A DNA stretch of 64,000 nucleotides from Halanaerobium sp. MA284_MarDTE_T2 (lineage in GTDB: Bacteria > Bacillota > Halanaerobiia > Halanaerobiales > Halanaerobiaceae). The stretch lies in contig NZ_QPJE01000007.1 of assembly GCF_003337245.1 (NCBI RefSeq), positions 1-64,000 of the forward strand, in the 5' to 3' direction. The notes under the pieces were generated by a model. It did no database searches and was not told the DNA's origin. It was given only the letters and a program-made list of their open reading frames with translations. Positions 6,117-39,986 of the stretch are shown one piece after another (the stretch's first letter is position 1; each line of letters begins with the position of its first letter). Position numbers and translations under genes: made by a program.

Positions 6117-6168
6117 ATATTACAAAGTTAAATTTATCACATTTTAAATATTATGGAAGGATGATAAA

Positions 6169-20083: not shown

Positions 20084-20137
20084 TATTCTCCTTTCTAAAT
20101 CCATTATTTCCCTTTCCAAAAAAATTTTATTATAAAT

Positions 20138-21001: not shown

Positions 21002-21002
21002 T

Positions 21003-21968
21003 TTACTGCCCTCCAAAAAAAGATTTTTTCAATATTTCATAATTTATACTGCCGGCAGAAAAACTGCTGCCTGTCTTCCTGTTTGTTATAATAACTCTTG
21101 CTGGACTAAAGAGCATCGGATCGATATCATAAAAATTATTATATTTTTTAAAAAGTTTTAAAAAACTTTCTCCATAATCTTTAGATGAATTTGATGGGAT
21201 TTTATCTATCAGATCTTCTATTTCCTCATCTTCACAAAATACTGTGTAATATGCTGTACCCCCATACAGCACTGCATCATTGGTTCTTCCAATAGCTGTC
21301 AGGTTATCTGCTGCCACTGGAGAAATAGGACAGCTCCCCCAGCCGCTTTCTATTTTACGGAGATCAAAGTTGAGTTCATGCATTTTATGCAGTCCGGTCT
21401 CTACTATCCTGCCGCTTATCTGTATTGAACCTGTCAGTGATTCTGCTGGTGCAGTAAGTATATAGACATCATCACAGGGAGTTGACAGTTTATCTGCTAT
21501 ATAGTCTGCTGCTTCTAAATCTGGCAGCTCGGAAGATTCCAGAACAATAACTGCCGGTACCCTTTCGTTTTCATGATATTCACTGAATTCTTCATATAAC
21601 TCTTCTTCTTTTAGCAGTATCCTGCCTGGACCGGAAGCCATAGCAAAAAAATCTCCACTTTCTACTTTCCAGCCTGCATACTGAGAAAGCATACATGCTT
21701 CCAGTGGATGATCAACCCGTACTTCCACAGACGGAAGCTGATAGCTCTGTAGATCAAAGCTGCCAAAACTTGCTTTCCCCATTCCTCCGAGACAAATTTC
21801 TATAAAATATTTACCCGCTCTGTAACCTCCTTTAGTTTTAACACCTCCATCTATAATCATAACACCATTTTCCATCTGTTGAACATCAATATTTAGATCT
21901 TCTTTATTTTTAATCATTTTTTTAACCAGCATAACTGCATTTTTATTGAGAGTTAACCTTCTTTCCAT
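21003..21968 (-). CDS. mch: methenyl-tetrahydromethanopterin cyclohydrolase
   Basis: Interconverts methenyl-H4MPT and 5-formyl-H4MPT. The 321-residue length matches Mch. Recognisable blocks are NKNAVMLVKKMI, MIIDGGVKTKGGYRAGKYFI, GMGKASFGSF, EVRVDHPLEACMLSQYAGW, FFAMASGPGRIL and WGSCPISPVAADNLTAIGR, with NDAVLYGGTAYYTV near the C-terminus. All are typical of Mch from archaea and methylotrophs. The ATG at 21968 follows GGGAGAG and overlaps the fwdC 3' end by 16 bases. It sits between the formyltransferase/dehydrogenase block and the cofactor-biosynthesis block of the operon. Confidence 0.93.
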   Translation of the reverse strand: MERRLTLNKNAVMLVKKMIKNKEDLNIDVQQMENGVMIIDGGVKTKGGYRAGKYFIEICLGGMGKASFGSFDLQSYQLPSVEVRVDHPLEACMLSQYAGWKVESGDFFAMASGPGRILLKEEELYEEFSEYHENERVPAVIVLESSELPDLEAADYIADKLSTPCDDVYILTAPAESLTGSIQISGRIVETGLHKMHELNFDLRKIESGWGSCPISPVAADNLTAIGRTNDAVLYGGTAYYTVFCEDEEIEDLIDKIPSNSSKDYGESFLKLFKKYNNFYDIDPMLFSPARVIITNRKTGSSFSAGSINYEILKKSFFGGQ

Positions 21969-22807
21969 ATAAGGATCTCTCCCTTCCCTATTTCTGTATT
22001 ATCACCTGTATATCTATGATAATAACCGGAAAACATATTTTGGGGAATATCTATCTTAAACTCATTTTTGAGGTGGGCAAAGGCAATTTTTAAAAATTCT
22101 GGATAATAGCTGATATTATAATTAAAAGTGGGCAGCATTTCCAGCTGATGGGCAGAAATAATTGTTCCACGCTTCATAGCAGCACCTGTTCTTTTACCTG
22201 CTTTACCAAAAAGATAGATAGAACCTGCCACCATTTGAGCTCCGGCCATATCTCCACAGCTGCCGCTGACAATTATCTCTCCTCTCCTCATTCTGCTGCC
22301 GAGAAAACTGCCAGCACTGCCCTTAATATAAATTACCCCTCTGTTCATGCCTAGCTTATCTCCCCTAAAGGCTGAACCTACATAATTACCTGTATTCCCA
22401 TTTACCTTAATATATCCACCCTGCATTTCTGCTCCCAGCCAATCACCGGTGTCTCCATTGACCTCTATTTTACCTCCACTCATTTCTGAGCCTGTATGCA
22501 TACCAGTACTGCCATTAATAAAAATTTCACCGGTTGTCATACCTGCTCCTATATATTTAAAATTATCCAGCTCTCCGTCTATAAATATGTTCTGAGAGGG
22601 CTCTCCTTCTATTTTGAAAAAATCTTTAAGCTTATACTTTTTTCTTCCTGCCAGCAGAGTCAGCTCAGCTATTTCGGAAATAGTCTTTTCTGCAGTTATA
22701 TCAGGAGATATATTTTCTGCTTCTACCGGCAGTTTACCTGCTGTTTTACCTTCTGGCTGAATTAAAGATGGATTATCCTTTTTTAAAATCAGCTTTAATT
22801 TACTCAT
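21953..22807 (-). CDS. fwdC: formylmethanofuran dehydrogenase subunit C
   Basis: A beta-helical subunit built from repeats of the type GxxxGxxM/R: examples are GDTGDWLGAEMQGG, GNTGNYVGSAFRGD, GSAGSFLGSRMRRG, GSCGDMAGAQMVAG and GKAGKRTGAAMKRG (about residues 110-220). The C-terminal part carries QLEMLPTFNYNISYYPEFLK, typical of FwdC/FhcC. It is a structural partner that organises the FwdA-FwdB core and, in the archaeal structure, shapes the formate channel region. ATG 22807 follows GAGGGGTGATC and overlaps the ftr stop by 8 bases. About 285 residues, close to the archaeal length. Confidence 0.9.
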   Translation of the reverse strand: MSKLKLILKKDNPSLIQPEGKTAGKLPVEAENISPDITAEKTISEIAELTLLAGRKKYKLKDFFKIEGEPSQNIFIDGELDNFKYIGAGMTTGEIFINGSTGMHTGSEMSGGKIEVNGDTGDWLGAEMQGGYIKVNGNTGNYVGSAFRGDKLGMNRGVIYIKGSAGSFLGSRMRRGEIIVSGSCGDMAGAQMVAGSIYLFGKAGKRTGAAMKRGTIISAHQLEMLPTFNYNISYYPEFLKIAFAHLKNEFKIDIPQNMFSGYYHRYTGDNTEIGKGEILIWKEG

Positions 22808-23702
22808 CAAGATCACCCCTCAGTATTTCGTGCAGGTAAATATTTTCTGTGCCGAGATCTCCACCATAGTTTCCTGCAGTTATTTTTATTATCCCTGGTA
22901 TACAGGCATTTTTTATGCCAACTGCCATTGCGTCTGATACAGCTTGTGTACTTAAACCATCTATAACTATTTCCAGAACTGAACCTGCATTTTTGGTCAG
23001 CATACTGTCTTTAACCTGTGCTTTAATGGTTGGACAGTAGGGTGTATTGGTAGATGCATTAAGAAATTTATATTTTGAACTGACTTTACTGCCACTGCTG
23101 ACTATTCCCCCAGGGAAAGGCATTATCACATCATTTAATCTGTGCACTGCTGCCACTGCTTTTTCGGCGGCTTCAAGTGCTGCCTGACTATCTTCCCCTA
23201 TTATTAAGAAATTTCCACCACCAAGTCCTTTTTTGATACCAAAACTTTCTTCTATTAAGAATTCACCACTCATTATTGGAATCCGCCAGAATCTTCTGTC
23301 ACTGTATAATTTGGAGATCTGATATCCATCACCAAAATAGCGAAGATTACCGCCCACTTTGATTTTCTCGTCTGTATGCAGACCGTTAAAACATGAAGTG
23401 GTGGCTGCAGTCATGATGGTCTGTCCTATTCTTTTTGTCAGTTCATTTAACATACTTTCTTTTTTCATAGTAAAAAAAAGCAGGCTGCAGCCGGGTCTTC
23501 CATCCGATGTTTCCTCAGGCAGCAGTTCTTTTTCCAGCCCGGCCTCTATCCCACACTCTATGATAGATGTTGCAAAGCCGACTGCTTCTCTAGCAGCTGT
23601 TCTAGCCCATTTTTCGTTTCTTGCTGTGACAATAACTCTGCTTCCGTACATAGTAAATGCTTCTGCAAAAGTATCTTCAATTTCTACACCTTTCAACTGC
23701 AT
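22800..23702 (-). CDS. ftr: formylmethanofuran:tetrahydromethanopterin formyltransferase
   Basis: Moves the formyl group between H4MPT and methanofuran. GVEIEDTFAEAFTMYGSRVI at the N-terminus is the Ftr hallmark, followed by GFATSIIECGIEAGLE, RPGCSLLFF and a KVGGNLRYFGDGYQ block. The C-terminus has TNTPYCPTIKAQVKDSMLT and AGNYGGDLGTENIYLHEIL. 300 residues is the normal length. Archaeal Ftr is free-standing, whereas in methylotrophs the homologue (FhcD) is a subunit of Fhc; here the gene lies between fwdA and fwdC, as in the bacterial gene order. ATG at 23702 overlaps the end of fwdA by 10 bases. Confidence 0.94.
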   Translation of the reverse strand: MQLKGVEIEDTFAEAFTMYGSRVIVTARNEKWARTAAREAVGFATSIIECGIEAGLEKELLPEETSDGRPGCSLLFFTMKKESMLNELTKRIGQTIMTAATTSCFNGLHTDEKIKVGGNLRYFGDGYQISKLYSDRRFWRIPIMSGEFLIEESFGIKKGLGGGNFLIIGEDSQAALEAAEKAVAAVHRLNDVIMPFPGGIVSSGSKVSSKYKFLNASTNTPYCPTIKAQVKDSMLTKNAGSVLEIVIDGLSTQAVSDAMAVGIKNACIPGIIKITAGNYGGDLGTENIYLHEILRGDLDE

Positions 23703-25363
23703 GGAATCACCTCCAGATTATTAAAATAGCTGTCTGAAACCGGATAGTTTTCAATCGAAATACTGTAGTAATTTTTGAAATCTTCACCGATTATTTCACT
23801 TATATTTTTATCATAATCCGGTCTGGCGACAAGTGTTTTTCCTTCTCTCAATTTTTCTACCAGCTTTCCATCTTCAACAATTATTTTCCCTGATTTAATT
23901 ACAATTTCAGGATGAGCAAATACTTCTGCTATTTTATCTTTGCTTTCCAGCCTGCTGTAAACTGTAATATCTGCATCTGCTCCCACACCAATATGACCTT
24001 TATTTGCCAGACCTAGTGCTCTGGCCGGTCCAGATCTTGTAATCACAGCTATTTCATCAAGGCTGTATTCTCTTTCCAGTTCTGCTATATCTGTATAATT
24101 TCCAAGTTTATTGTGCATTTCTGATATCATCTTCAGCCGATAATCTCTACTCATCAGCAGTTTTATTATCCAGGGATAGGCAGTAAATGGACCTGCATTT
24201 GGATGATCTGTTGTCAGAAAAACCTTCCAGGGATCATCTATTTTTAAAAACAGCTCCAGACCAATTGCCCACTGTATTCCATTTATAAGATTTTTCTTTT
24301 TGTAGTTCATGGGCACTATACCTGAACCGGTTTCCATCTCTACATCTGTATTAACCCATTTGCTGCCTGTCAGCTTATGAAGATTATATTCTAAAATACC
24401 ATCAGCTGTCATGGTTGTTACCTCACCAAATACTATCTGACCAATATCAACAGTTAACTTATCATCATTATTTACTTTTTCTGCTATCTGATCTGCCGCA
24501 GAGACAAATTTAATTTTGCTTTCTTCATTAAGACCATAACTGCTGAACTGGATATGTGTTATATGTTTTCGGTAATCTTTGAGCAGATCAAGTGTGGAAA
24601 TTGTAGTTTTATAATTGCCAGGTGAACCTAGATCATTTGTATGAATATGAACAGGGTGCGGCAGTCCCAGCTCGTCATTTGCTTCTGCCAGTGCCAGCAG
24701 TATTTCTCTTGGAGAAAGATTAAAATGTGTCCCTTTTTCTTCAATTCCCCTGAGCCTTTTTCCTTCTTTCCAGGCCTCCACTCCACCTGGATTAACTACT
24801 TTAAGTCCAAATGCACCTGTGACATTTATCAGCCAGGCAAGATAATCTTTTAAGGCTTTTTTGTTTTTCTCTTTTATAAATTTAAGTACAAAATAATTAT
24901 TGCCGCTTAGGACAAGAAATCCCTTATCAATAAATGGAAGTCCTCCGAACTCTTCGTGTATATGTCTGGCCTTCATGGGGGGACCTGCTGCTTCCATAAC
25001 CGTAGTATATCCCATCAGGCTGTAGCGGTATCCTGTCACATAACTTGTTGGTACTGTTGAACCTACACCGGACCGCAGTCCTCCTTTTTTGGGAACATTA
25101 TCGTGGCGATGATCTTCCGGCCTCAACACACGACCGGTATTAATTTTAGGTCCTGCAATATGTGCGTGAATATCTACTCCTCCCGGCATTACAATTTTTT
25201 CTTTAAGATCTATTTCCTGATAACTACCCTGATTTTTTGCACTCTCTATCTCTTCCGCTGAAGGTTTTGAAACTATTTTTTCATTTTTAATCCATATATC
25301 TTCTTTTACAGCAGACTTATTATTTTTTGGATCATAGATAATTCCGTTTTTTAATCTAATCAT
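23693..25363 (-). CDS. fwdA: formylmethanofuran dehydrogenase subunit A (amidohydrolase)
   Basis: A metal-dependent amidohydrolase that hydrolyses or forms formyl-methanofuran, exchanging formate with the dehydrogenase subunit. VMPGGVDIHAHIAGPKINTG carries the HxH metal motif. GLKVVNPGGVEAW holds the lysine expected to be carboxylated, VHIHTNDLGSPGN gives further histidines and FLTTDHPNAGPFTAYPWI the late aspartate. The 556-residue length is normal. ATG 25363 is 10 bases after GGGGAG and overlaps the fwdB stop by 8. The subunit is shared by archaeal Fwd/Fmd and bacterial Fhc, so it does not by itself decide between redox and hydrolytic systems. Confidence 0.93.
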   Translation of the reverse strand: MIRLKNGIIYDPKNNKSAVKEDIWIKNEKIVSKPSAEEIESAKNQGSYQEIDLKEKIVMPGGVDIHAHIAGPKINTGRVLRPEDHRHDNVPKKGGLRSGVGSTVPTSYVTGYRYSLMGYTTVMEAAGPPMKARHIHEEFGGLPFIDKGFLVLSGNNYFVLKFIKEKNKKALKDYLAWLINVTGAFGLKVVNPGGVEAWKEGKRLRGIEEKGTHFNLSPREILLALAEANDELGLPHPVHIHTNDLGSPGNYKTTISTLDLLKDYRKHITHIQFSSYGLNEESKIKFVSAADQIAEKVNNDDKLTVDIGQIVFGEVTTMTADGILEYNLHKLTGSKWVNTDVEMETGSGIVPMNYKKKNLINGIQWAIGLELFLKIDDPWKVFLTTDHPNAGPFTAYPWIIKLLMSRDYRLKMISEMHNKLGNYTDIAELEREYSLDEIAVITRSGPARALGLANKGHIGVGADADITVYSRLESKDKIAEVFAHPEIVIKSGKIIVEDGKLVEKLREGKTLVARPDYDKNISEIIGEDFKNYYSISIENYPVSDSYFNNLEVIPCS

Positions 25364-26642
25364 TTTCAATCAGCTCCCCTATTCTGGATACTGCAGAAGC
25401 ATCATCCGGCCAGCTGTCGTCGAGAAATTTTCTCAGCTGAAGTGGAACATGGTCCATCCTGTAAACTGTTCCGGAAGCACCAATACCCTTTACAGCAGAT
25501 GGTATTACTACATCTGCTATTTCTGTAGTTAAATTCCAGTGAGGATCCAAAACTATGGTTGGTATTTTCTTTAGATATTCTGCTGCCTCATGTGGCAGAC
25601 TGGCTGCAGGGTCAGAAGCAATAATAAAAGCTGCATCTACTTCTCTGCGGGCCAGCAAATCAACTGCCGAAAATTCTCCTGGATTATAGCGGGGATAATT
25701 TCTGCTGAAATTAACAGCAAACGGATAACCTGTCTGCCAGGCCATTGTAATTTCACTGCCGGCAACATTTCCATGTCCCCGCATAGGTATCATTACAAAT
25801 CTTCCATAATCATTAAGATTTCTGACCAGGCTCATCGCAGCCCAGGTATTCATATATTTTCCTCTACTCATAGTTAAACCCATTCCATAAAAAACAGACC
25901 CATATTTTACCTTTTTCATTTTCTCAGCCAGATCTTTCAGCTTTACCAGCTCTATACCACCTATTCTGCCGTCTTCTGAAGTCGGTGTTCTGCCGCTTAC
26001 TAGCATCTGCAGAGCCATCAAAATCTCGAAATCAGAATTTGGTTTTACCTGAAAAAAATGATCTGCCAGTTTGGCAGTGGGAGTTTTTCGGACATCAAAA
26101 ACAATTATTTCCCTATCCTTTCTATTCTTACGATACATACCCTGTGATAATATCGAATATCTTTTGGCATGATTAGGATGAGCTTCCACTGGATTTGCCC
26201 CCCAAAAAATCATCATATCTGATCTGTTTTTTACCTCACCTAATGTAGCAGATACCATCCCTACAAGCTGTTTTGCCAGTGTTCCCGGGCCGTGGCAGAC
26301 AGAAGACGTGCTGTCTATATTGGCACCACATTTTTCCGCCAGTTCAACTGCAGCTTTTTGTGCCTCTGCAGTTGTACTGCTGAGACCGTAAATAAGTGGA
26401 TTCCTGCTGCTGCTTAAAATTTCTGCTGCTGCAGAAACCGCTTTATTATATTTAACTTCTTTACCTTTTATCTGGGGAACAGTTCTATCTTTTTGAGCAT
26501 GTTCGTATTTTTTTCTGGAGATAGCACAGGCATTTTTTATATTTTCTATTTTATTATTTTTAACCTTTATTTCAATATCATCACATAGTGCACCACAAAA
26601 GGTACAAATTATATTTTGATAGGTTTTGCTTTCCTCATTCAA
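25356..26642 (-). CDS. fwdB: formylmethanofuran dehydrogenase subunit B, with Fe-S and Mo/W ligands intact
   Basis: The catalytic subunit that oxidises formate to CO2 at a Mo- or W-bis-pterin centre. The N-terminal ICTFCGALCDDI plus NACAI supplies four cysteines for a [4Fe-4S] cluster. SVCHGPGTLAKQLVG (about residue 100) carries the cysteine that binds Mo/W in archaeal FwdB. LGEVKNRSDMMIFWGANPVEAHP, FYGMGLTMSRGKY, PMRGHGNVAGSE and PSAVKGIGASGTVYRMD all match archaeal FwdB. As I recall, FhcB of aerobic methylotrophs lacks these cysteines, so this protein looks redox-active. 428 residues. TTG at 26642 overlaps the fwdD stop as TTGA. Confidence 0.92.
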   Translation of the reverse strand: MNEESKTYQNIICTFCGALCDDIEIKVKNNKIENIKNACAISRKKYEHAQKDRTVPQIKGKEVKYNKAVSAAAEILSSSRNPLIYGLSSTTAEAQKAAVELAEKCGANIDSTSSVCHGPGTLAKQLVGMVSATLGEVKNRSDMMIFWGANPVEAHPNHAKRYSILSQGMYRKNRKDREIIVFDVRKTPTAKLADHFFQVKPNSDFEILMALQMLVSGRTPTSEDGRIGGIELVKLKDLAEKMKKVKYGSVFYGMGLTMSRGKYMNTWAAMSLVRNLNDYGRFVMIPMRGHGNVAGSEITMAWQTGYPFAVNFSRNYPRYNPGEFSAVDLLARREVDAAFIIASDPAASLPHEAAEYLKKIPTIVLDPHWNLTTEIADVVIPSAVKGIGASGTVYRMDHVPLQLRKFLDDSWPDDASAVSRIGELIEND

Positions 26643-26992
26643 CTATCCTCCCCCTCCTTTCTTTTTATCATTACTTTTTTTCCTTTCGAGCTGGGCATTC
26701 CAGTTCCATCTGTATCTGTACCGATCAATTTATTTGCCTGGGGACCATAGGGAATAAAAACTATTTCTTCCGGCAGATCACCTTTTTTACAGCTCAGCTC
26801 AACCTCTCCGGAATCGGTGTAAAGTAATATTTTTTTCCCTTCACTTAAATTATATTCTTCTAAAATATTTTCATTTAATTCTACATAAGCTGTACTGTCT
26901 TCATAATTCTGATTATTTTTACCCGAAACAGATGCCATTCCCTGTTTTATAGTTCTACCAGTTATCAGAGTAAATGATCTTTTATCAGCCAA
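26639..26992 (-). CDS. fwdD: formylmethanofuran dehydrogenase subunit D (pterin-dinucleotide-binding domain)
   Basis: A 117-residue protein of the molybdopterin-dinucleotide-binding fold, completing the FwdB active site. TLITGRTIKQGMASVSGKN aligns with the start of archaeal FwdD, and FIPYGPQANKLIG with TGMPSSKGKKVMIKR matches its cofactor-binding end. TTG at 26992 lies 7 bases after GGAGG and 2 bases after the stop of the ATP-grasp gene; the open frame to 27046 would overlap that gene. FwdD is not part of the four-subunit methylotroph Fhc complex, so its presence supports a genuine Mo/W formylmethanofuran dehydrogenase. Confidence 0.86.
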   Translation of the reverse strand: MADKRSFTLITGRTIKQGMASVSGKNNQNYEDSTAYVELNENILEEYNLSEGKKILLYTDSGEVELSCKKGDLPEEIVFIPYGPQANKLIGTDTDGTGMPSSKGKKVMIKRKEGEDS

Positions 26993-26994
26993 AT

Positions 26995-28209
26995 TTACAC
27001 CTCCTCTACAACAAATTCTTCCAAAAAAGAAAAAGCATTTCTGCACAGCTCAAATAATTTCTGCCTACTTCCTGCACGAATCAAAACTGTGCAGACAGGA
27101 GAAGTCTTTTCTATATATTCTCCTGGATGAGGCAGATCTCTAAATTCGTATTTTCCGCTCATATTAATTTCTTTATAATCAAGCAGTTTTGTTATCTCTT
27201 TTTTTACAGTCAGATTAGATTTTGCATAATATATTACCTTCGCATATAACGGCATTTCGGAAAAAATAAATTTTTCTCTGAGATTTTCATCTATACTGCT
27301 GCTGAAATAAAGATTAAAAAGTTCTTTCCCAAAAATAGGCAGCAGAAGCTCAACTGCTGCAGTGAAGCGGGGATTTAACTCTATAAAATATATTCCATCT
27401 GGTGCAAGTATAAAATCTATTCCACTGATACCTTTAAGTCCATACTCCCGGCTCAGGCTTTCTGCCATATTCTGCAGCTTCTTTATAATATCCGAAGTGC
27501 TCCTGATTAATAGATTACCTCCATAGCGAAAACTATTCTGAAAATTTAAATCTTTAAGCTGTTCTGTAATTCCCAGAATTTCCGCACTTCTGCCGTCAGC
27601 TGCAAATATGGCTGAAGATACTCTACCTTCGATATACTGCTGCAGATAAAAATTTCCCCACATTTCTGTATCAATTTCTTTTTGAGCTTTATTGAGATTG
27701 TTATAAACTGTTATATTTTTACCTCCACCACTTAAATATGGTTTTAAAAGATATTTTCTATCTGGATTGATCCTGCTTTGTTTCTTCAGTTCTTCTCCGG
27801 TCTTTATTATTTCAGGCAGGTTAAACCCTCTTTTTTTTAGATAACTGAATATGTCACTGCCTTTTTCTCTGCTGACTTTACTGCTGATTTTCTTAAGAAC
27901 TTCTGCTGAATTTCCCAGCAGTTTAATTTCTTTTTCTGCCAGAACTTTATTTAATAATTCCGGCCTATTATCCCAGTCAGAACTGTAAACAAAATACTGT
28001 TCTTTATCATAATGTTTTTCTATCAGCTTAAGCAGTCCTTCAGTACTGTAATTCTGACCTGCTGAATTTCTTTTGATACTGAAGCTTCTGCTGCAGAATT
28101 TTTTTAAATCCAGATCTCCAAAAAAATCAATACAGCTAACATCACAACCTGCTTTTGCTGCTGTTTCCGATAGAGCTCGACCAGAAAATCCGCTGACAAG
28201 TACTTTCAT
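26995..28209 (-). CDS. ATP-grasp ligase of the C1 operon, acceptor unknown
   Basis: A 404-residue carbamoyl-phosphate-synthetase-like ATP-grasp protein. A Rossmann-like start (VLVSGFSGRALSETAAKAG) precedes KYLLKPYLSGGGKNITVYN, the ATP loop, and FYLQQYIEGRVSSAIFAADG. GLKGISGIDFILAPDGIYFI with ELNPRFTAAVELL forms the Mg/ATP site. The last ~110 residues are a C-terminal domain. It immediately abuts mtdB (no gap) and precedes fwdD by 2 bases. ATP-grasp genes of this type are conserved in methylotroph H4MPT clusters, and attaching an amino acid to methanofuran or methanopterin is inferred; it could also be the MfnD function. Confidence 0.72.
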   Translation of the reverse strand: MKVLVSGFSGRALSETAAKAGCDVSCIDFFGDLDLKKFCSRSFSIKRNSAGQNYSTEGLLKLIEKHYDKEQYFVYSSDWDNRPELLNKVLAEKEIKLLGNSAEVLKKISSKVSREKGSDIFSYLKKRGFNLPEIIKTGEELKKQSRINPDRKYLLKPYLSGGGKNITVYNNLNKAQKEIDTEMWGNFYLQQYIEGRVSSAIFAADGRSAEILGITEQLKDLNFQNSFRYGGNLLIRSTSDIIKKLQNMAESLSREYGLKGISGIDFILAPDGIYFIELNPRFTAAVELLLPIFGKELFNLYFSSSIDENLREKFIFSEMPLYAKVIYYAKSNLTVKKEITKLLDYKEINMSGKYEFRDLPHPGEYIEKTSPVCTVLIRAGSRQKLFELCRNAFSFLEEFVVEEV

Positions 28210-29070
28210 CTAGTTCAGCTCTTTGTAAAGTTTATATACTTCCACAGCATTAAAAATACTGTCAGTGCTTTTAAACAGTTCAGCTACTGCTTTTTTGTGC
28301 AGTTTCATTTTTAAACCACCTATTCCCAGTGCTCCAAATACTTTAACTCCATCGATAATATCACCATCTGCTCCAGGCTTTATACCTTCTATTCCGGCCG
28401 GACTTACAGCATTAATATCTCCCATAACTTTTATGCTGTCTACTTTTTTCCACATATCTTCTGTAAGAAAATTAATTTTTGGTGGGCCAGCCGATAAAAT
28501 TACATCTTTACCACTTATTATCTTTTCAAACTCTTCTTTTTTAGAGCCCTGAACTCCAGAAATATTTTTAACATCATATTTTTCCATTATTTCTTCTGCC
28601 TTCTTTTCTGCCCTTTCCCGGCTGCGTGATGTGATAACTACTTCTGCTCCTTCTCTGGCTAACAGCATAGCTGCTCTTACTCCTACCGGTCCTGTACCGG
28701 CTATTACGACAGCTTTTTTATCTTTTAAGTTCACAGAATTTTTAATTTTCAGGACTGCTGCTGCAGCTGTTGTATTTGCTCCATTTGAATCAAGAAGCAC
28801 TGAAACTCTAAAATTGGCAAAAAATACATCTTTTACTGCGGCAAGGATTTCTTCACCTTTATTTACATCAGAACCACCAATAAATACAGCCGTGTTGTTC
28901 ATTTTTTTCGGACTCCTGGTAAAAACAGCACCATAGATTATATCTTCCACTTCTTCTTTTTTTATATCAGCATGAGAAATTATATTATCTGCTCCTGCAT
29001 CATAGGCAACCACCTGGTCGAAAGTGCTGGCCCTCTTATCTGTATCAAGCTGAATAAGTAGTTTTTTCAT
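28210..29070 (-). CDS. mtdB: NAD(P)-dependent methylene-tetrahydromethanopterin dehydrogenase
   Basis: Oxidises methylene-H4MPT to methenyl-H4MPT with a nicotinamide cofactor. The N-terminal LIQLDTDKRASTFDQVVAYD is the family hallmark, followed by GAVFTRSPKKMNNTAVFIGG. The Rossmann nucleotide site is KKAVVIAGTGPVGVRAAMLL (about residues 119-138), followed by VVITSRSRERAE. The serine/arginine after the beta-strand suggests NADP may be accepted, but this is only suggestive. 286 residues, as in methylotroph MtdB. Methanogens use F420-dependent Mtd instead, so this catabolic step is of the bacterial type. The ATG start at 29070 is near GGTGATC. Confidence 0.92.
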   Translation of the reverse strand: MKKLLIQLDTDKRASTFDQVVAYDAGADNIISHADIKKEEVEDIIYGAVFTRSPKKMNNTAVFIGGSDVNKGEEILAAVKDVFFANFRVSVLLDSNGANTTAAAAVLKIKNSVNLKDKKAVVIAGTGPVGVRAAMLLAREGAEVVITSRSRERAEKKAEEIMEKYDVKNISGVQGSKKEEFEKIISGKDVILSAGPPKINFLTEDMWKKVDSIKVMGDINAVSPAGIEGIKPGADGDIIDGVKVFGALGIGGLKMKLHKKAVAELFKSTDSIFNAVEVYKLYKELN

Positions 29071-29171: not shown

Positions 29172-30659
29172 TTAAACTGTATCCTTCCAATTGCAGTGTT
29201 TGTGCTTTTTAACATAAGTACATACAGCACAGTCCTTACAGTAACGGGCAGGTGCAACTACTGCTTCTGGCTTTGTGGCAATTATATTTGTCATCAGTGT
29301 TGCAGTAACCGGCTCACTTGTCAGCAGACATGGGAAGTCAGCCAGACGCATCAGTGATGAGAATTTAACTGTAATTGCACAGGCAGGATATGCATAGCGC
29401 TGTGTATTCTGCAGTATTTCACTGTTTTCTATCGGGCTGAAGTCTATTTCGATACCTTTAACTTTACACCCGGCACCAATTGGTTCATCATCTATTATCT
29501 TGTCACCACGGTGAATCATATCCATAAAGTCAACATTGTGCAGCTCTACAGCCTGACCTCTACCTGGATTTAAGTTAACATAGTTGTGGAATCTCTTTGT
29601 TAAAAGATCAATAACCATTGGAGCAGTAAATCCTTCGTCCCAAAGCATTGAAGAAACTGCTGCTGCTGTTGAACCTGTAGCAACACTTAGAACATCATAG
29701 AGGCTGTCATAGCCTTTTTCCAGACCTTTTTCCAGTGTGTTTTTCATTACATTGGAAACAACTTCTACAATTTCCATTGTTACATCATCTTTAAGCATAT
29801 TGTAGGTTGACTGTGCAATGTGGTGGGCAATATCTCCAACACAGTATGCAGGTACTACAACTATATTTGCGGGATGAACTCCTGCTTTTTTAGCTGCAAG
29901 TACATAAGGCTTCATCCATTCTTTGTAGCGTTTCATATACTCTTTTGCATCAAATGAAGTCATACCTTCATCTTCCATCAACTTAACCTGTGCATCTATC
30001 GGCTTATCATAGAGCATCTGCATAGTTTTAACTTCTTTATCAGCAGCTTCTGCTGCAGTTTTACCACTTTCTACAGCTTCTGTCCAGGCTCCACCAATAC
30101 CATAAGAGGTATTCATACCCCAGGATTTGGCTGCCAGCAGTGTCTTTTTGTAATCTCCATCAATATCAGTATTTTTGAGAATTTCATTTACTACATTACT
30201 TACTGATCCAGGACTAAAGGCAAAGTCAACAACACAGGTAGGCCCATACATTCCACCATATCTGCGCATTGCTTCACGGGCGATAAGAGCTTCTTCTTTT
30301 TTAATCTGCTCGATAAACTTCTCTGCTGCTTTGCGGAAATCCGGATCATCTTCATATAAAATTTCAAGAATTGGAGGTGTCTGATAGTGCTCAACAAATG
30401 GATCATCCTCAGGACGAACAGTATCTGTTAAGTCTTTCAGTATTTCATAATGGGCTTTAACAGACTCAATGTGAAGATCAAAAACCTCTTTTGACTGTCC
30501 TTCAATTGGCTTCATTTTTTTAACAGCATCAACATAAGGCTTCGCATCGGTAATTTTAAATTTCTTACCTCTTTTTTCTTTAAAAACACCAACATCTGCA
30601 AATTGAGCTGCAACAGCCTCATCAATCATTTTCTTAGCAATTTTAGCTTTGTCTACCAT
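29172..30659 (-). CDS. DUF2193-like protein, first gene of the C1 operon, function unknown
   Basis: A soluble 495-residue protein without signal peptide or membrane segment. I recognise it as resembling the methanogen family DUF2193, from memory and without a search. Striking blocks are YGGMYGPTCVVDFAFSPG, KSWGMNTSYGIGG, VVPAYCVGDIAHHIAQST (cysteine and paired histidines), RFHNYVNLNPGRG and a C-terminal cysteine set YCKDCAVCTY...HCNW, which could bind a metal or Fe-S cluster. ATG 30659 follows GAAGGGGGATATTTT. A sigma-54 promoter lies ~130 bases upstream and a strong hairpin follows, suggesting high, inducible synthesis. Position suggests it feeds one-carbon units to mtdB; this is inference, and no catalytic family is recognised. 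Confidence 0.7.
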   Translation of the reverse strand: MVDKAKIAKKMIDEAVAAQFADVGVFKEKRGKKFKITDAKPYVDAVKKMKPIEGQSKEVFDLHIESVKAHYEILKDLTDTVRPEDDPFVEHYQTPPILEILYEDDPDFRKAAEKFIEQIKKEEALIAREAMRRYGGMYGPTCVVDFAFSPGSVSNVVNEILKNTDIDGDYKKTLLAAKSWGMNTSYGIGGAWTEAVESGKTAAEAADKEVKTMQMLYDKPIDAQVKLMEDEGMTSFDAKEYMKRYKEWMKPYVLAAKKAGVHPANIVVVPAYCVGDIAHHIAQSTYNMLKDDVTMEIVEVVSNVMKNTLEKGLEKGYDSLYDVLSVATGSTAAAVSSMLWDEGFTAPMVIDLLTKRFHNYVNLNPGRGQAVELHNVDFMDMIHRGDKIIDDEPIGAGCKVKGIEIDFSPIENSEILQNTQRYAYPACAITVKFSSLMRLADFPCLLTSEPVTATLMTNIIATKPEAVVAPARYCKDCAVCTYVKKHKHCNWKDTV

Positions 30660-30797: not shown

Positions 30798-30813
30798 TGC
30801 ATATATCGTTCCA
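30798..30813 (-). promoter_or_regulatory. sigma-54 (-24/-12) promoter of the C1 operon
   Basis: On the minus strand TGGAACGATATATGCA: GG at -24 (30812-30811) and GC at -12 (30800-30799) with exactly 10 bases between. It matches TGGCACGRNNNTTGCW at all specified positions but two. Predicted transcription start is near 30787, giving a ~128-base leader. A sigma-54 activator gene lies 5 kb upstream on the same strand. Confidence 0.75.
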
Positions 30814-30947: not shown

Positions 30948-31931
30948 TTAAACGCACTTTTCAATTTTTACCCCCTCAGCGGCTGCTTTTGTGGTGATTA
31001 TATCTGTAACATCACCTTTAAATTTATTCAGCAAACTGATTTTTAACATTTCTGCTGTTTTTTTATCTGCACAAATTCCGTAAAGCGAGGGACCCCAGGA
31101 GCTCTGCCCTGCTCCATATGACCCATTTTGAAGCATAAATTTTACTATTTCTGCAGATATTTTTGTACTGTACCTCCCTCCCTGTACCTGTTTAAAATAA
31201 TCTCCCACATTTATTTCCAGCTGTGTTAAAGCTCTGCCGAAACTTTTAATATCTTTTTCCACCAGTGCAGGAAGCATACCCAGGAGAATATGATGAGCAT
31301 TTTCTGCAGCAGTATCTCTTGACATAGATTTTAAATTTCTGAAAGTTTTAATTTCTTTTCTTCCAGAAAGGCCTGTTTTATCTACCTGTGGAAAAACAAT
31401 AACTAACCTCCATTTTTCGGGCACTTTTTTTTGGAAAATAACAGGTGGTAGATAACTGTCATTTTCTTTTTCAGCCACAGGACGTCCACCATCTACAATA
31501 AATCCACCGGTATAAAATACTCCAAAACCTATTCCCGATCTGCTGTGCTTTCTGTCTACATATGCAGCTACCTGTTCAGGTTTTAAATTCAGCTGGTAGA
31601 GATTGTTCAGACCTTCCCCAATGGTAAGTCCAATCTGAGTTCCGGAACCAAGTCCCTGATGAAATGGCAGAATTTCTTCTATCTCTACCACAGCACCCTG
31701 ATTCTGGCCCAGCATATTTTTACTGTGGAGCTTTTTTATAAATTTTTCCAGAATTTCTGCAGTTTTTTCTGAATATTTTCCTGTAACAGAAATGTTATCA
31801 GATTTTTTGAATTTCATAATACAGGCAGGATTTTCTACTCCTATCCCTGCTCCTCCATAAATTCTGCCTCTACTTCCATCTAAATCGATCTGCCCGAAAT
31901 GTATTCTGGCCGGACTTTTTATCTTTATCAA
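30948..31931 (-). CDS. mptG: beta-ribofuranosylaminobenzene 5'-phosphate synthase
   Basis: Joins p-aminobenzoate (or 4-hydroxybenzoate) to phosphoribosyl pyrophosphate with loss of CO2, the first committed step to the methanopterin arylamine. A GHMP-kinase-like fold of 327 residues: SPARIHFGQIDLDG at the N-terminus, LPFHQGLGSGTQIGLTIGEG as the glycine-rich loop, HSRSGIGFGVFYTGGFIVDG, and GAGQSSWGPSLYGI at the C-terminal part. All are typical of RFAP synthase of archaea and methylotrophs. TTG at 31931 follows AGAGGTGA. It lies just upstream of the sigma-54 promoter of the main operon, with a MITE copy directly upstream of its own start. Confidence 0.9.
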   Translation of the reverse strand: MIKIKSPARIHFGQIDLDGSRGRIYGGAGIGVENPACIMKFKKSDNISVTGKYSEKTAEILEKFIKKLHSKNMLGQNQGAVVEIEEILPFHQGLGSGTQIGLTIGEGLNNLYQLNLKPEQVAAYVDRKHSRSGIGFGVFYTGGFIVDGGRPVAEKENDSYLPPVIFQKKVPEKWRLVIVFPQVDKTGLSGRKEIKTFRNLKSMSRDTAAENAHHILLGMLPALVEKDIKSFGRALTQLEINVGDYFKQVQGGRYSTKISAEIVKFMLQNGSYGAGQSSWGPSLYGICADKKTAEMLKISLLNKFKGDVTDIITTKAAAEGVKIEKCV

Positions 31932-32332: not shown

Positions 32333-32884
32333 TTAATTTAAATAATCTTTCAGAAAATGATAGCATTCGATTTCTCTGCTGCCTGCAGTTTTTATTATAA
32401 TTCTTTTGTTTTTCTGCAGAAACTCCTTAACTTCTTTTCGGCTGGTGCTGATGCCGATCCGTGATGCTCTCACTGCTGCCTCTACAAGCAGATTACTGGC
32501 CCGATTGAACCCTCTGTATTCTCTGAGTATGACTCTGGAAACTATTTCTGCTTCAATACTGTATTTCTCTTTTTTTTCTGCGGTGCTGTTTACGTTAAAT
32601 TGCAGATAACTGCAGGCTCGGCTTAGATAAAATCCATCTTTATCAGGGGTTTTTTTTACTTGAAAATCAGGTTCTATAAGGGCAGATTTAACAAGATGCA
32701 GTGCACTATCAGTTATATTTATTACTCCCTTTTTTGTCTTGAGTAAATTTTCTGCTGTAATTGAATCTTTATAAAAGTAAAATTCCACTCTATCTGATTT
32801 ATCTGAAAAAAGTTCTACACCTGCAGCTGCAAAATGAGGAGTTTTATTTTTATTTATAGTTGTCATTACAGTTTCTATAATCAC
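32333..32884 (-). CDS. DUF447-family protein of H4MPT clusters
   Basis: A 183-residue protein resembling the DUF447 family, which occurs in methanogens and in methylotroph H4MPT gene clusters. Visible features are an N-terminal beta-rich half (NKTPHFAAAGVELF, then FYFKDS-like FYFYKDSITAENLLKT) resembling FMN-binding split barrels, the conserved ILREYRGFNRASNLLVEAAV, and a C-terminal helical segment with AVRASRIGISTSR. GTG at 32884 follows GGAGAAGG. No reaction is established to my knowledge; a flavin-linked step in methanopterin formation is a guess from context. It is bounded by a tandem-repeat array upstream and a MITE downstream. Confidence 0.72.
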   Translation of the reverse strand: MIIETVMTTINKNKTPHFAAAGVELFSDKSDRVEFYFYKDSITAENLLKTKKGVINITDSALHLVKSALIEPDFQVKKTPDKDGFYLSRACSYLQFNVNSTAEKKEKYSIEAEIVSRVILREYRGFNRASNLLVEAAVRASRIGISTSRKEVKEFLQKNKRIIIKTAGSREIECYHFLKDYLN

Positions 32885-33046: not shown

Positions 33047-34432
33047 TTACTCTAAATCAAAATGATCTAAATAACCCCAGCTGAGTTCATCTTCCTGTCG
33101 ATAATTTTTCTTCAATTTTAGTGCTGTCTCTGCTTTTTTTAGTTCTTTACCCAGGTAAAATGCATGAGATAAACTGCCCACATAATTCAACCTGTCAAAC
33201 AGCTCTTTTATATCCTGTCCATGGTAGTATTCTTTTCCATTAAAAATATGAATTTCCTTTCCATCACTGAGGATTCTGTAATTTGTATCTCTGACAGAGG
33301 CCCTAATCTCCTCTATTTCTTTACTGCTGTAATTCTTGTTTTTTCTGTCTTTTAAAGTTATCAGAAGTTCAGACAGTTTATTGGGCAGCATATTTTCTTC
33401 TTTAGCATATTCATTGATCTTCAGTGCCAGATCCAGCTCTTTTACAGAACCTGAGGTTTTAGCAGATGCTTCTGTTGTCAGAACATAGTCTATTCCCAGC
33501 TCTGCTGCTAGTCCGGCCGAAATAAAATTGAGCCCCGTACTGTCGGCATCTGTAAGTTCTATCAGATTTCCAACCCCCATCATAACTGCACTATTTCTGC
33601 TGCTGTCTGTGCAGTATTCTATATATCTGGAAAGTGATTTTTTAAAGCCAAAGTTAATAGGATCCAGTATGGGATCGGCAATATAATTTCTGCAGCCTCT
33701 TTTTTTAACTTCCTCAATATTTTTGTAAAGTGAATTTAATCCAACCTCTGGATCGGGAATTATAACAGGAATAAAGCCTGCTCCTTCAACAGCACTATAG
33801 TTGCTGCTGTTAATACTTAGAACATAGTCTATATTTTCTCGGTCAGCTCTTTTTATTTCTTCTGCATTTAAACTGTCCAGACTCAGCTTGAAACCCCGCT
33901 TTTTTAGCTCATATATTGTTTTTTCCAGATGGGGAAATTCTCTCCCATTGACACAACCTAGATCCACTATATCAGCCCCACTCCGGTGATAATACTCAGC
34001 TTTAGTGATAATTTCTGGAAGTGAAGTAAGGGCTGCTTCGTTAATTTCGGCAATAATTTTTATCTTACGTTCTTTTTTTTCGAAATCAACTGCGGCAGGT
34101 TTTTCTCCAAAAAATTCCGGCAGATCAATTATTTCATCAGGTCCCCGTACTACCTCAACCTGATAGTCAAATATTTTGTTAATTTCTGTTTCAATTTTAT
34201 CTTCTTCTGCTCTGGAGCGTCCGGGCAGATATACTATTAGTTTATCTTCAGTATAGTTTTTCAGCAGATGACTTTCTTTGAGCTGTCTGATAATAAAACT
34301 GCTGTCTAAAAGCGCAGCAACTGTAATCGGTATTTTTAGTATGCTGTATTTTTCTTCAAAATTTATCTGTCTCAGTTTTTTCTGCAGAGAAGAAAAAGCA
34401 AGTTTCCCAGTTATAAATAGTTTTTCAGCCAT
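33047..34432 (-). CDS. dihydropteroate-synthase-like protein of H4MPT clusters
   Basis: A 461-residue protein whose middle part is a DHPS-like TIM barrel: KIIAEINEAALTSLPEII, YHRSGADIVDLGCVNGREFP, LSLDSLNAEEIKRAD, YIADPILDPINFGFKKSL and AVMMGVGNLIELTD. The N-terminal ~110 residues form a separate domain and the C-terminus has HIFNGKEYYHGQDIKELFDRLN. The usual folate DHPS signature (NITPDSFSDGG) is absent. Such proteins occur in methanogen and methylotroph H4MPT clusters, where joining the pterin pyrophosphate to the ribofuranosyl arylamine is the expected role. It overlaps the fusion gene upstream by 22 bases. Confidence 0.8.
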   Translation of the reverse strand: MAEKLFITGKLAFSSLQKKLRQINFEEKYSILKIPITVAALLDSSFIIRQLKESHLLKNYTEDKLIVYLPGRSRAEEDKIETEINKIFDYQVEVVRGPDEIIDLPEFFGEKPAAVDFEKKERKIKIIAEINEAALTSLPEIITKAEYYHRSGADIVDLGCVNGREFPHLEKTIYELKKRGFKLSLDSLNAEEIKRADRENIDYVLSINSSNYSAVEGAGFIPVIIPDPEVGLNSLYKNIEEVKKRGCRNYIADPILDPINFGFKKSLSRYIEYCTDSSRNSAVMMGVGNLIELTDADSTGLNFISAGLAAELGIDYVLTTEASAKTSGSVKELDLALKINEYAKEENMLPNKLSELLITLKDRKNKNYSSKEIEEIRASVRDTNYRILSDGKEIHIFNGKEYYHGQDIKELFDRLNYVGSLSHAFYLGKELKKAETALKLKKNYRQEDELSWGYLDHFDLE

Positions 34433-35688
34433 AACTCCACCTCATTAGGATGTGTAATTACCTTTACTCTTTCTACTGATTTTAACTTTTCTGCATTATC
34501 AAGATCAATTTTGCGGGGAAAAACATCTACCATTTTGTCTGGTGCCGGAGATACTAAATTTTCCTCTATGTCTGTCGGCAAAACCAGAACCGGAACCTTT
34601 GCTTTACCGGCATGTGCCATCATATTTGTAACCAGTGTATCCGAAATCCCATATAAATATTTTGCAGCTGTATTTGATGTTGTCGGTGAAGATACAACAA
34701 AATCGTAATGGCCCTTATATAATCTTCCTATTACAGCCGCACTGGGACTGGTGTCTTTATGAATCTCACAGTTTAGCTGTTTCAATTTTTCGTAAAGGCT
34801 GTATATTCTCAGCACTTCAGATCCGGCATCACTTAAATATATATCGATCTTCCACCCAGGATATTTTGTTTTTAAATATTTTATTTCTGCCAGAGTTTCC
34901 TCCAATAGATGGCCGGCTCCGGTTATACACCAGGCTATTTTCCCTTTCAAACTGTCATCTTCTATCAGCTTTATTTCTGCTCTACCCAGTGATCCACTGT
35001 GGAAGGCTGAAGCTATGAGGAGCCCAGAAAACCCGGCTTTTTTCACTATTTTTACATCTCTGTAATCCTTAATTCCTCCCCCTGTGATAAACTCCAGATC
35101 GGGAAATGACGCTTTTATATCCAGCAGATATTCGGCCAGTCCCATCCCGGTTCCCACATGAGCAAGATCCAGCATAATAAACTTTTGATAGCCGTATAAT
35201 TTTATTTCTTTTACTATCTGCTGTGCCTCCATCTGCTCCCATTTTTTAATTTTGTGGATCAATCTGCTATTTTTGAGATCTATGCTGATATATATTCTTT
35301 CTCTGTATTCTTTTAATTCTTCTAACATGCTCAGATCGCTGAGGGATTCTGTCGCTATTATGGCATAATCTATACCTTTTTTTAAAATTTCTATCACATC
35401 TTTACTGTTTTTAAAACCACCGTCCAACAATATATTGTAATCCGGAAATTCTTTTTTTATTTTCAAAGCTGATTTTAAGTTTCTGTCGTTTCCTGTTATT
35501 GCATCTAAGTCGGCAATATAGAGTTTTTTTAGACCCAGCTTTTTCCGAAAAGCTTCTGCAATTTTTTCTGGAGAAGCTGTAAATTCATCAGTAAGCCGGC
35601 TTTTTACCGGCTGATATTTTTGCCTTTCACCTGCTTTACCCTGTACTGCTAAACCATCTTTAATATCTATAACACCGATAGCTTCCAC
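34411..35688 (-). CDS. fusion of HisA-like TIM barrel and flavoprotein (dihydromethanopterin-reductase-like)
   Basis: 425 residues in two domains. Residues ~1-235 are a HisA/HisF-related barrel: GVIDIKDGLAVQGKAGERQ, LYIADLDAITG, ILLDGGFKN and FITGGGIKDYRDV. Residues ~240-425 form a flavoprotein-like domain: IAWCITGAGHLLEETLAEIK, FVVSSPTTSNTAAKYLYGI and VTNMMAHAGKAKVPVLVLPTD. The second half resembles archaeal-type flavoproteins and DmrB/DmrX, which reduce dihydromethanopterin. Both domains occur as separate proteins in methylotroph clusters, so the fusion suggests linked functions in H4MPT formation. The GTG start at 35688 follows GGAGAG and lies 5 bases after the regulator stop. Confidence 0.78.
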   Translation of the reverse strand: MEAIGVIDIKDGLAVQGKAGERQKYQPVKSRLTDEFTASPEKIAEAFRKKLGLKKLYIADLDAITGNDRNLKSALKIKKEFPDYNILLDGGFKNSKDVIEILKKGIDYAIIATESLSDLSMLEELKEYRERIYISIDLKNSRLIHKIKKWEQMEAQQIVKEIKLYGYQKFIMLDLAHVGTGMGLAEYLLDIKASFPDLEFITGGGIKDYRDVKIVKKAGFSGLLIASAFHSGSLGRAEIKLIEDDSLKGKIAWCITGAGHLLEETLAEIKYLKTKYPGWKIDIYLSDAGSEVLRIYSLYEKLKQLNCEIHKDTSPSAAVIGRLYKGHYDFVVSSPTTSNTAAKYLYGISDTLVTNMMAHAGKAKVPVLVLPTDIEENLVSPAPDKMVDVFPRKIDLDNAEKLKSVERVKVITHPNEVELWLKNYL

Positions 35689-35692: not shown

Positions 35693-37291
35693 TCACTCTC
35701 CTATTTTTATCTGATATTTGTCTATTTTATTGTAAAGGGTAGCCCTTGTTATACCGAGAATTTCTGCTGCCTTTGTTAAGTTTTGTCCTGATTTTTTTAG
35801 TGCATTTATTACCGCCTTTTTTTCCATTTCTTCCAGAGACATAGGTCCAGCTTCATCTGTTTTTTTTGTCGATTTTTTGCGAATTTCTTTTGGCAGATGT
35901 TTTGGTTTTATAATTTCTTCATCCATGGCAAATGTAATTACACCTTCCAGCATATTTTCCAATTCTCTTACATTTCCCGGCCAGTCATAATTGATTAAAT
36001 ATTCTAATGTATTACTGTGAAGCTTTTTGCTGGGAATCCCAAATTTGTGGCAGTGTTTTTTAATAAAATTTTCCGTTAATAATTTTATATCTTCTTTTCT
36101 CTCCTTCAGCTCTGGTAGTGGTATTGTAATTACATTTAGGCGGTAATAAAGGTCTTCACGAAAATTTCCCTTTTCCACTTCTTTGAGGAGATTTTTTTTG
36201 GTTGCTGTTATTATTCTTACATCTATCGGCAGAGCTCTTGTTCCACCAATACGTGTTACTTCTTTTTCCTGTATCACCCTCAGCAAGTTCTGCTGTGCTG
36301 AAAGAGACATCTCTCCTATTTCATCCAGAAAAATCGTGCCCCCATTGGCCAGCTCAAATTTGCCAGGTTTTCCACCTTTTATGGCACCTGTAAATGCCCC
36401 ATCTTCATAACCAAAAAATTCGCTTTCCACAAGATCTTTAGGAACTGCACCAACATTTATGGCTACAAAAGGTCTATTGCGCCGATAATTATAATTGTGT
36501 ATTGCCTGGGCAAACATTTCCTTACCTGTACCACTGCTGCCGACAAGCATTACTGTAGAATCATTTCTTGCTGCTATTTTTGCCACTTCTATTGCTTTAT
36601 ACATTTTTTCGGATTCTGTAACTATACTGGAAAAATCGTAGCGCACTCTGGAACCGATTTTTGGACTTGATTTTATTTTTTGTTTTGAAATTAATGTATC
36701 AATAGGTGTTTTTTCGGTCAGAGTCAGACCGATAATATGAATGATAAGTTTAAGTAGATCAATATTTATTTCTGCAGGAGAAAATGCCCCTACTACTCCA
36801 AGCAGTTCACTGTCTTTATTAAGTATTGGATAGGCAGCAGAATTAAGTTCTGTCAGATTGTTTTTGAAATGTTCGTTACCAATAACATGAGAAGGATTTT
36901 TAGTAAAAAGTGTCAGTCCAACTGCTGAGGTTCCTTTATGAAATTCACTCCAGTTATCTCCGGTCCTAATATCTAAAAAATCTTCAAGATGATTTTTAAC
37001 AGATAAAATATAACCTTCCTCATCTGTAATCAGAAAGGCTGCCGCGATATTTTCCATTATCTGATTTAATTCATCAAATATAAAATCAAATTTGTCCAGC
37101 TCATCTCTATATTTTGCTATTTTTTCTGCTGCTCTATTTTGATCCAGCAGCTGGCTGGCCGAAAATTCGTCTGTTTTTATACCATAATCAGAACTCCTCT
37201 TCCATGAATTTTGTATAACTTTTCTAAAAGGTGTATAACTTCTTTTTATTTGAGTTAATAGGCCGTCAAAATCAAAATTATCTCTTTGCAA
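35693..37291 (-). CDS. sigma-54-dependent transcriptional activator (GAF-AAA+-Fis HTH)
   Basis: A bacterial enhancer-binding protein of 532 residues. An N-terminal SYTPFRKVIQNSWKRSSDYG and a GAF/PAS-like sensor (residues ~70-200) resemble AcoR. The AAA+ domain has VMLVGSSGTGKEMFAQAIHN (Walker A), the sigma-54 contact loop GAFTGAIKGG, GGTIFLDEIGEM (Walker B) and REDLYYRLNVITIPLPELKE. The C-terminus is a Fis-type helix-turn-helix (LTKAAEILGITRATLYNKID). No receiver domain, so it is likely ligand-responsive. It precedes the fusion gene by 5 bases and is the obvious candidate to act at the sigma-54 promoter at 30798-30813. Start TTG 37291 follows AAGGAGG. Confidence 0.9.
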   Translation of the reverse strand: MQRDNFDFDGLLTQIKRSYTPFRKVIQNSWKRSSDYGIKTDEFSASQLLDQNRAAEKIAKYRDELDKFDFIFDELNQIMENIAAAFLITDEEGYILSVKNHLEDFLDIRTGDNWSEFHKGTSAVGLTLFTKNPSHVIGNEHFKNNLTELNSAAYPILNKDSELLGVVGAFSPAEINIDLLKLIIHIIGLTLTEKTPIDTLISKQKIKSSPKIGSRVRYDFSSIVTESEKMYKAIEVAKIAARNDSTVMLVGSSGTGKEMFAQAIHNYNYRRNRPFVAINVGAVPKDLVESEFFGYEDGAFTGAIKGGKPGKFELANGGTIFLDEIGEMSLSAQQNLLRVIQEKEVTRIGGTRALPIDVRIITATKKNLLKEVEKGNFREDLYYRLNVITIPLPELKERKEDIKLLTENFIKKHCHKFGIPSKKLHSNTLEYLINYDWPGNVRELENMLEGVITFAMDEEIIKPKHLPKEIRKKSTKKTDEAGPMSLEEMEKKAVINALKKSGQNLTKAAEILGITRATLYNKIDKYQIKIGE

Positions 37292-37797: not shown

Positions 37798-37885
37798 AAA
37801 TATCACCTCTTTTAAATATTTTTGAACATATGCTCTTTATATTTATTATTATAACTCTATTTTGGGCATATGTCAACAATTATTT

Positions 37886-37917: not shown

Positions 37918-37924
37918 CATATTC

Positions 37925-39976: not shown

Positions 39977-39986
39977 CTCTACACCC

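Follow-up and report, generated by a model that had tools for sequence, protein, structure and literature searches.

DUF2193 as a candidate entry enzyme for C1 units in the H4MPT-linked metabolism of Halanaerobium and other anaerobes

The DUF2193 family is widespread in methane-cycling archaea and is shared with oxygen-avoiding bacteria, and its function is unassigned. A member is encoded in the window analyzed here, i.e. a stretch of 64,000 nt from Halanaerobium sp. MA284_MarDTE_T2 (contig NZ_QPJE01000007.1), where it stands next to genes of H4MPT-linked C1 oxidation. The locus raises the question of how C1 units enter this pathway, and whether the DUF2193 protein is the enzyme that delivers them.

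The DUF2193 open reading frame encodes a predicted 495 aa protein on the minus strand (30659..29172). It begins with an ATG codon, just 5′ of which is a GGGGG ribosome-binding stretch, and the plus strand opposite contains many stop codons. The preliminary description of this DNA associated the protein with DUF2193, and the HMM search bears this out: the match to Pfam PF09959 is 838.8 bits (cut-off 25) and aligns aa positions 6–495 with model positions 2–498, which is full length. Profile searches gave no other Pfam or NCBIfam match. The closest relative is a Halanaerobium congolense protein, which is 88% identical.

The gene set for H4MPT-linked C1 oxidation, i.e. mtdB, mch, ftr and fwd, is present in the window together with genes of H4MPT synthesis. 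The features of the cluster are as follows.

19172..20119, minus strand: CitG-like protein, frequent in bacterial H4MPT clusters (TIGR03132, E 3e-11, below cut-off)
20138..21016, minus strand: MptN-like glutamate ligase for the H4MPT tail (NF040720, 290.7 bits, cut-off 350)
21003..21968, minus strand: Mch, methenyl-H4MPT cyclohydrolase (PF02289, 408.7 bits)
21953..22816, minus strand: FwdC (GXGXG, PF01493)
22800..23702, minus strand: Ftr, formylmethanofuran:H4MPT formyltransferase (PF01913 and PF02741)
23693..25369, minus strand: FwdA, amidohydrolase subunit (PF07969)
25356..26642, minus strand: FwdB, with the active-site Cys in VCHGPG at the Cys/Sec position (TIGR03129, over cut-off)
26639..27046, minus strand: FwdD (Molydop_binding; NF042908, E 1e-23, below its cut-off)
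26995..28209, minus strand: ATP-grasp ligase, weakly MfnD-like (PF02655; NF040722, E 1e-8, below its cut-off)
28210..29070, minus strand: MtdB-type methylene-H4MPT dehydrogenase (Mpt_N, PF09176)
29172..30659, minus strand: DUF2193 protein (type 1), proposed C1-entry enzyme (PF09959, 838.8 bits; conserved residues and structure models)
30813..30798, minus strand: sigma-54-type −24/−12 site TGGAACGATATATGCA, within the 288-bp gap upstream of DUF2193; equivalents in 15 of 15 bacterial loci
30948..31931, minus strand: beta-RFAP synthase of H4MPT biosynthesis (TIGR00144, over cut-off)
32333..32884, minus strand: DUF447-like protein (cluster c7); by eye it resembles the L001 and L010 homologues, of which the L010 member matches DUF447
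33047..34432, minus strand: dihydropteroate-synthase-like protein of H4MPT biosynthesis (TIGR00284, E 5e-51, below its cut-off)
34411..35688, minus strand: fusion of a HisA-related domain with a dihydromethanopterin-reductase-like flavoprotein (TIGR00734, TIGR02700, TIGR02699)
35693..37291, minus strand: sigma-54 enhancer-binding protein, candidate regulator (PF00158 and HTH_8; GAFTGA intact; homologue in 14 of 15 bacterial loci)

This cluster could plausibly both make H4MPT and oxidize methylene-H4MPT to CO2. The placement of mtdB directly after DUF2193 was correctly described before; the Mpt_N gene starts approximately 100 bp downstream. The flavoprotein part of the 34411–35688 fusion is DmrX/AfpA-like and is a separate, unfused gene in Peptococcaceae. 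Just upstream of the cluster, at positions 37465–41192, there are genes that by eye encode MinD/Mrp-type ATPases with ferredoxin domains and NifX-like proteins.

The preliminary description noted that Fae, Mer and Mtr are absent from the window and that a donor is thus missing. This extends to the host genome, which is 99.8% complete: Fae, Mer and MtrH were searched for genome-wide and none was found, including a fae gene elsewhere in the genome, which had been named as evidence that would speak against the proposal. The H4MPT pathway thus lies beside DUF2193 without a known C1 feeder. The same is true of the other bacteria tested with respect to Fae and Mer. Fae is absent from all 17 entries of bacterial DUF2193 bearers (some entries represent one genome twice), and Mer was found in none of the bacterial bearers tested. 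Among archaeal bearers, Fae and Mer are present in some and not in others. Fae occurs alongside DUF2193 in 4 of 27 bearer entries, all of them archaeal, and in two of the four Thermoproteota bearers. A strict mutual exclusion of DUF2193 and Fae is thus rejected for archaea, where both occur in some bearers.

All 15 distinct bacterial DUF2193 loci are located within an H4MPT biosynthesis/oxidation cluster. RFAP synthase is a partner in 15 of these, the sigma-54 activator in 14, MtdB in 13 and FwdB in 12; the absences are mostly in short contigs. MtdB directly follows DUF2193 in Halanaerobium and some Clostridia.

A −24/−12 site (TGGCATN6TTGCW-like) is found 79–290 bases before the DUF2193 start in each of the 15 bacterial loci. 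The 16-base scores are 17–20 of 21, with shuffle frequencies of 0 to 0.023. Eight of nine archaeal loci show nothing above shuffles, and the ninth scores like the bacterial sites, by chance; to our knowledge, sigma-54 is absent from the archaeal hosts. The pattern in the window, taken alone, is no commoner than chance, and the weight of the site rests for this reason on its conservation. Since the site is conserved and the cluster also encodes an activator, DUF2193 seems, as judged from the sequences, to head a sigma-54 transcript that is induced by substrate in bacteria. It had previously been presented as the lead gene of the operon. The cluster as a whole does not begin with DUF2193, as the RFAP synthase, DUF447-like, DHPS-like and HisA/flavoprotein genes are upstream on the same strand; however the 288-bp gap with its sigma-54-type site makes a transcript of its own plausible.

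The neighborhoods of other DUF2193 genes show a second recurrent partner, the AqpM-type channel. Its gene is 94–124 bp after DUF2193 in Peptococcaceae and Desulfosporosinus, and it is near DUF2193 in eight bacterial loci. It lies within 27–308 bp, nearly always on the same strand, in 29 of 33 archaeal type-1 loci, which are non-independent samples, most of them from one phylum search. The paired channel matches the solved AqpM structures (3ne2, 2evu/2f2b) with E about 1e-90. Three of the four archaeal type-1 loci that have no AqpM gene (L021–L023) are beside Mtd or MtdB, Ftr, FwdB/A/C and Mch, and the fourth (L139) is a short contig; the association with Mtd or MtdB, Ftr, Fwd and Mch is found in the Bathyarchaeal and Thermoproteota loci L019 and L021–L023. 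DUF2193 genes are thus overwhelmingly beside H4MPT-linked C1 genes or AqpM; a location mostly outside of C1 contexts, which the preliminary description had held would count against a C1 role, was not observed. AqpM as an obligatory partner is rejected, as no MIP channel at all was found in the Halanaerobium genomes that carry DUF2193. Other transporter genes also occur nearby: ECF-type transporter genes adjoin DUF2193 in Thermoproteota loci L022, L023, L138 and L139, and a CbiM cobalt transporter gene is near it in L017.

The AqpM pairing could signify that the substrate is methanol, which AqpM would admit and DUF2193 would oxidize to methylene-H4MPT or formaldehyde by means of a metal or Fe-S center. 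AqpM has a narrow, rather hydrophobic filter (PMC3287591), methanol is fermented by Ca. Formimonas warabiya (PMC9768040), and no methanol dehydrogenase was noticed nearby. However DUF2193 has no recognized redox domain and no match to solved folds, methanol use is not known for many archaeal bearers, and the links of the type-2 proteins described below suggest aldehyde chemistry; a methanol-level enzyme is considered unlikely. A channel of the MIP family would also suit a neutral compound of larger size, akin to glycerol, dihydroxyacetone or glycolaldehyde, from which DUF2193 would cut a hydroxymethyl group for H4MPT, by analogy with serine hydroxymethyltransferase, which acts on serine and THF. 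Dihydroxyacetone-kinase-like genes are seen by eye 3–4 kb upstream in L140, and type-2 genes beside an aldehyde oxidoreductase would also be in keeping with it, but the DhaK/DhaL neighbor is a single case, the AqpM pore is narrow, and neither a PLP-type nor an aldolase fold was found for DUF2193. This is quite improbable.

Some Halobacteriota genomes contain a second DUF2193 copy that has only 35–40% identity to the window protein. These type-2 sequences form one fully supported group in the tree. In 12 of 13 type-2 loci an MtrH homologue is encoded next to DUF2193 or elsewhere in its cluster, and the thirteenth is a 3-kb contig. The L114 and L120 clusters also encode a Mer-type, luciferase-like protein together with an aldehyde ferredoxin oxidoreductase, and in L119 an aldehyde ferredoxin oxidoreductase gene precedes the type-2 gene. 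These partners link the family with H4MPT-based C1 transfer by evidence separate from the bacterial operons, and they point to aldehyde-level chemistry. Type 2 resembles the MtrH-coupled methyl-transfer systems in being paired with an MtrH homologue, like the substrate-specific partners; it differs in that no corrinoid domain is recognized in DUF2193 and some clusters add the aldehyde ferredoxin oxidoreductase. The bacterial sequences fall at three places in the tree, where the forks are open, and the tree fits more than one number of moves between bacteria and archaea. The contig of L018, filed as Actinomycetota, carries a DUF2193 sequence very close to that of Bathyarchaeota L019 and is probably a mis-binned archaeal contig.

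The presence of DUF2193 follows that of Mch within one family. Among 14 Halanaerobiaceae genomes, the same six have both genes and the same eight have neither, an arrangement expected once in 3003 if the two were independent. Mch is found in 74 of 300 Thermoproteota genomes, and all four genomes with DUF2193 are inside the Mch set. In Halobacteriota, DUF2193 is present in 72 of 247 genomes searched (~29%). A general need for DUF2193 in Mch-bearing genomes is rejected, given that only 4 of the 74 Thermoproteota have it and that neither DUF2193 nor Fae was found in five more distant Mch-bearing genomes, where the surroundings of Mch are quite different. In L087, L088 and L090, which bear Mch and no DUF2193, two diverged Mch genes flank genes similar to those of 2-oxo-acid dehydrogenase complexes (E1 alpha/beta, E2). 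These unusual clusters contain short-chain dehydrogenases, in some cases E3 and lipoate ligase, and in L087 methyltransferase-like genes, and Fae is absent from them.

The location of bacterial DUF2193 genes among RFAP synthase, DHPS-like and flavoprotein genes might also be that of an enzyme of H4MPT or methanofuran biosynthesis, or of a side-chain modifier. But M. jannaschii, the control, has no DUF2193 and yet makes H4MPT, the family is limited to 4 of 74 Mch-bearing Thermoproteota, and archaeal copies are with AqpM, away from biosynthesis genes. This is the least probable of the readings considered here.

An alignment of 47 sequences of both types shows H70, E90, Q93, T94, D145, W180, D276, H279, H280, D291, R356, R367, H374, D377, D380, C444, E449, C477 and C489 to be invariant, and E372 and C474 are kept at ≥90%. 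The C-terminal conserved set is C474-x2-C477...[C/H]x2-C489. C474 is lost in L018/L019 and there is a Cys/His swap within the set, which would favor a knuckle of the zinc or labile Fe-S kind over a fixed cluster, as far as residue conservation indicates. The preliminary description had based a metal site on Cys/His-rich blocks. Conserved Cys and His residues are present, H279 and H280 among them, but CxxCxxC is rejected as a metal motif because its third Cys (C480) varies, and the Cys of the AYCVGDIAHHIA block varies across the family while D276, H279 and H280 are family-wide. A putative metal site may be formed by H279, H280, E372, H374 and C444, and C474/C477/C489 may add a Zn or Fe-S knuckle.

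The structure model made from the 47-row alignment (pLDDT 91.4, pTM 0.91) is almost all helical; the other model has a pLDDT of 84.5. When both models were compared with solved structures, no Foldseek match was below E 0.001, and the best Z scores, 4.8 and 4.6, were to long-helix proteins at noise level; the lack of a match is not proof of a new fold. When used as sequence queries, neither the single protein nor the 47-row profile found a relative among solved structures. A characterized unrelated enzyme, which had been considered evidence against the proposal, was thus matched neither by sequence nor by fold.

The only DUF2193 protein named in the open literature searched is Mvol_0354 of M. 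voltae, which is of the same PF09959 family as the window protein, itself a full-length match. It is more abundant on pyrite, which its authors relate to iron/sulfur handling, with a suggestion of Fe-S binding (PMC9431491); PF09959 is named nowhere in that literature. This abundance on FeS2 and the Cys-rich C-terminus (PMC9431491) would agree with a protein that handles iron or sulfide, i.e. a labile Fe-S carrier or a chaperone for the Fe-S/W enzymes of the pathway, with AqpM passing H2S. However the strongest conserved set (D276, H279, H280, E372, H374, D377, D380) is outside of the Cys-rich C-terminus, and such a function does not predict the consistent H4MPT clustering, the MtrH pairing or the nesting in the Mch set. 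Iron or sulfide handling is distinctly unlikely.

On balance, DUF2193 probably catalyzes C1 entry into an inducible oxidation pathway that depends on H4MPT, and replaces Fae there, a conclusion held with considerable reserve. Context gives the entry role good support, much better than the position in one genome from which it was first proposed; for the direct handling of H4MPT, its chemistry and direction, the substrate and the binding of metal, we infer the following. DUF2193 would take a C1 unit from a small neutral compound to form methylene-H4MPT independently of Fae. MtdB, Mch, Ftr and FwdABCD would then convert this by way of methenyl- and formyl-H4MPT and formyl-methanofuran to CO2. Formaldehyde/methanediol is the leading candidate, because the pathway begins at the formaldehyde level and some type-2 genes are beside aldehyde oxidoreductase; methanol ranks second. 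In bacteria the sigma-54 activator would turn on DUF2193 plus the genes of H4MPT synthesis and of the H4MPT-dependent steps. For archaea whose metabolism already depends on H4MPT, only DUF2193 and the AqpM channel would make up the portable unit, whereas in bacteria not otherwise running on H4MPT, DUF2193 would travel with the genes for H4MPT synthesis and use; this arrangement is as expected of an entry step. Type 2, with MtrH and in some clusters the Mer-like protein and aldehyde oxidoreductase, would perform the same chemistry between methyl/methylene-H4MPT and formaldehyde/formate.

Several points count against an entry role. Formaldehyde and H4MPT condense spontaneously, and an entry enzyme is thus not strictly required. 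Many methanogens grow on H2 or acetate, where use of methanol or formaldehyde is not expected. To these are added the archaeal bearers with Fae, the five Mch-bearing genomes without DUF2193 and Fae, Halanaerobium without a MIP channel, and the higher abundance of the M. voltae protein on pyrite. Shared spread with the operon could be a partial source of the co-occurrence.

A broader form of the proposal is put forward tentatively, as a possibility that falls short of an even chance. DUF2193 may represent a novel class of enzyme that differs in fold from every solved structure; it would be an anaerobic counterpart of Fae whose metal site loads a C1 unit from a channel-delivered neutral compound onto H4MPT. 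DUF2193 and AqpM would form a portable C1-uptake module common to methanogens, methane-oxidizing archaea, Thermoproteota and anaerobic Firmicutes, and another branch of the family would be coupled to MtrH and an aldehyde ferredoxin oxidoreductase. The likeness to Fae (PF08714) is in the proposed pathway position, i.e. methylene-H4MPT supplied to MtdB/Mch/Ftr/Fwd. DUF2193 differs in having no PF08714 match and about 495 aa, all-helical in the model, versus 159 positions in the Fae family, and also in its anaerobic hosts, sigma-54 operon and extra Cys/His residues.

If DUF2193 feeds H4MPT, this would explain how anaerobes without Fae run the H4MPT pathway. It would constitute an unrecognized C1 input for methanogens, methane-oxidizing archaea and sulfate-reducing Firmicutes, would supply AqpM with a partner in metabolism, and may bring to light that anaerobes use or detoxify formaldehyde or methanol in ways not suspected so far. 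As the operon is of the sigma-54 type, its inducer, and hence the substrate, can be tested directly in Desulfosporosinus and Halanaerobium, both of which can be cultured.

H4MPT genes in Firmicutes, including the H. hydrogeniformans genome, were already known (PMC5020050). New here are the conservation of the bacterial H4MPT cluster and its sigma-54 site, the AqpM pairing, the MtrH-paired type 2, the co-occurrence with Mch and the residues kept across types. Links of DUF2193 to H4MPT oxidation, AqpM, MtrH or sigma-54 control were not found in the open literature searched and are possibly published elsewhere. The DUF2193 clusters have mtdB, mch, ftr/fhcD, fwd/fhc and H4MPT-synthesis genes in common with the H4MPT/methanofuran modules of methylotrophs and Firmicutes (PMC5020050), but they have no Fae, DUF2193 is the proposed entry gene, FwdB keeps the Cys or Sec active-site residue, and sigma-54 control is predicted.

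Two separate copies of the DUF2193/H4MPT cluster are present in Desulfosporosinus lacus (L011, L024) and in a Peptococcaceae MAG (L007, L008). In Ca. Formimonas warabiya (L010), a formate-dehydrogenase-like set of NADH-dehydrogenase-like and molybdopterin oxidoreductase genes is ahead of the cluster at positions 2127–7490. The FwdB genes of L010 (18558–19856), L007, L011, L024 and L025, from Desulfosporosinus, Ca. Formimonas and the Peptococcaceae MAG, have an in-frame TGA exactly at the Cys position of the VCHGPG/YCHGPG motif of Halanaerobium and L008. These FwdB are probably selenoproteins with an active W/Mo site, and the Peptococcaceae MAG has TGA in one FwdB copy and Cys in the other.
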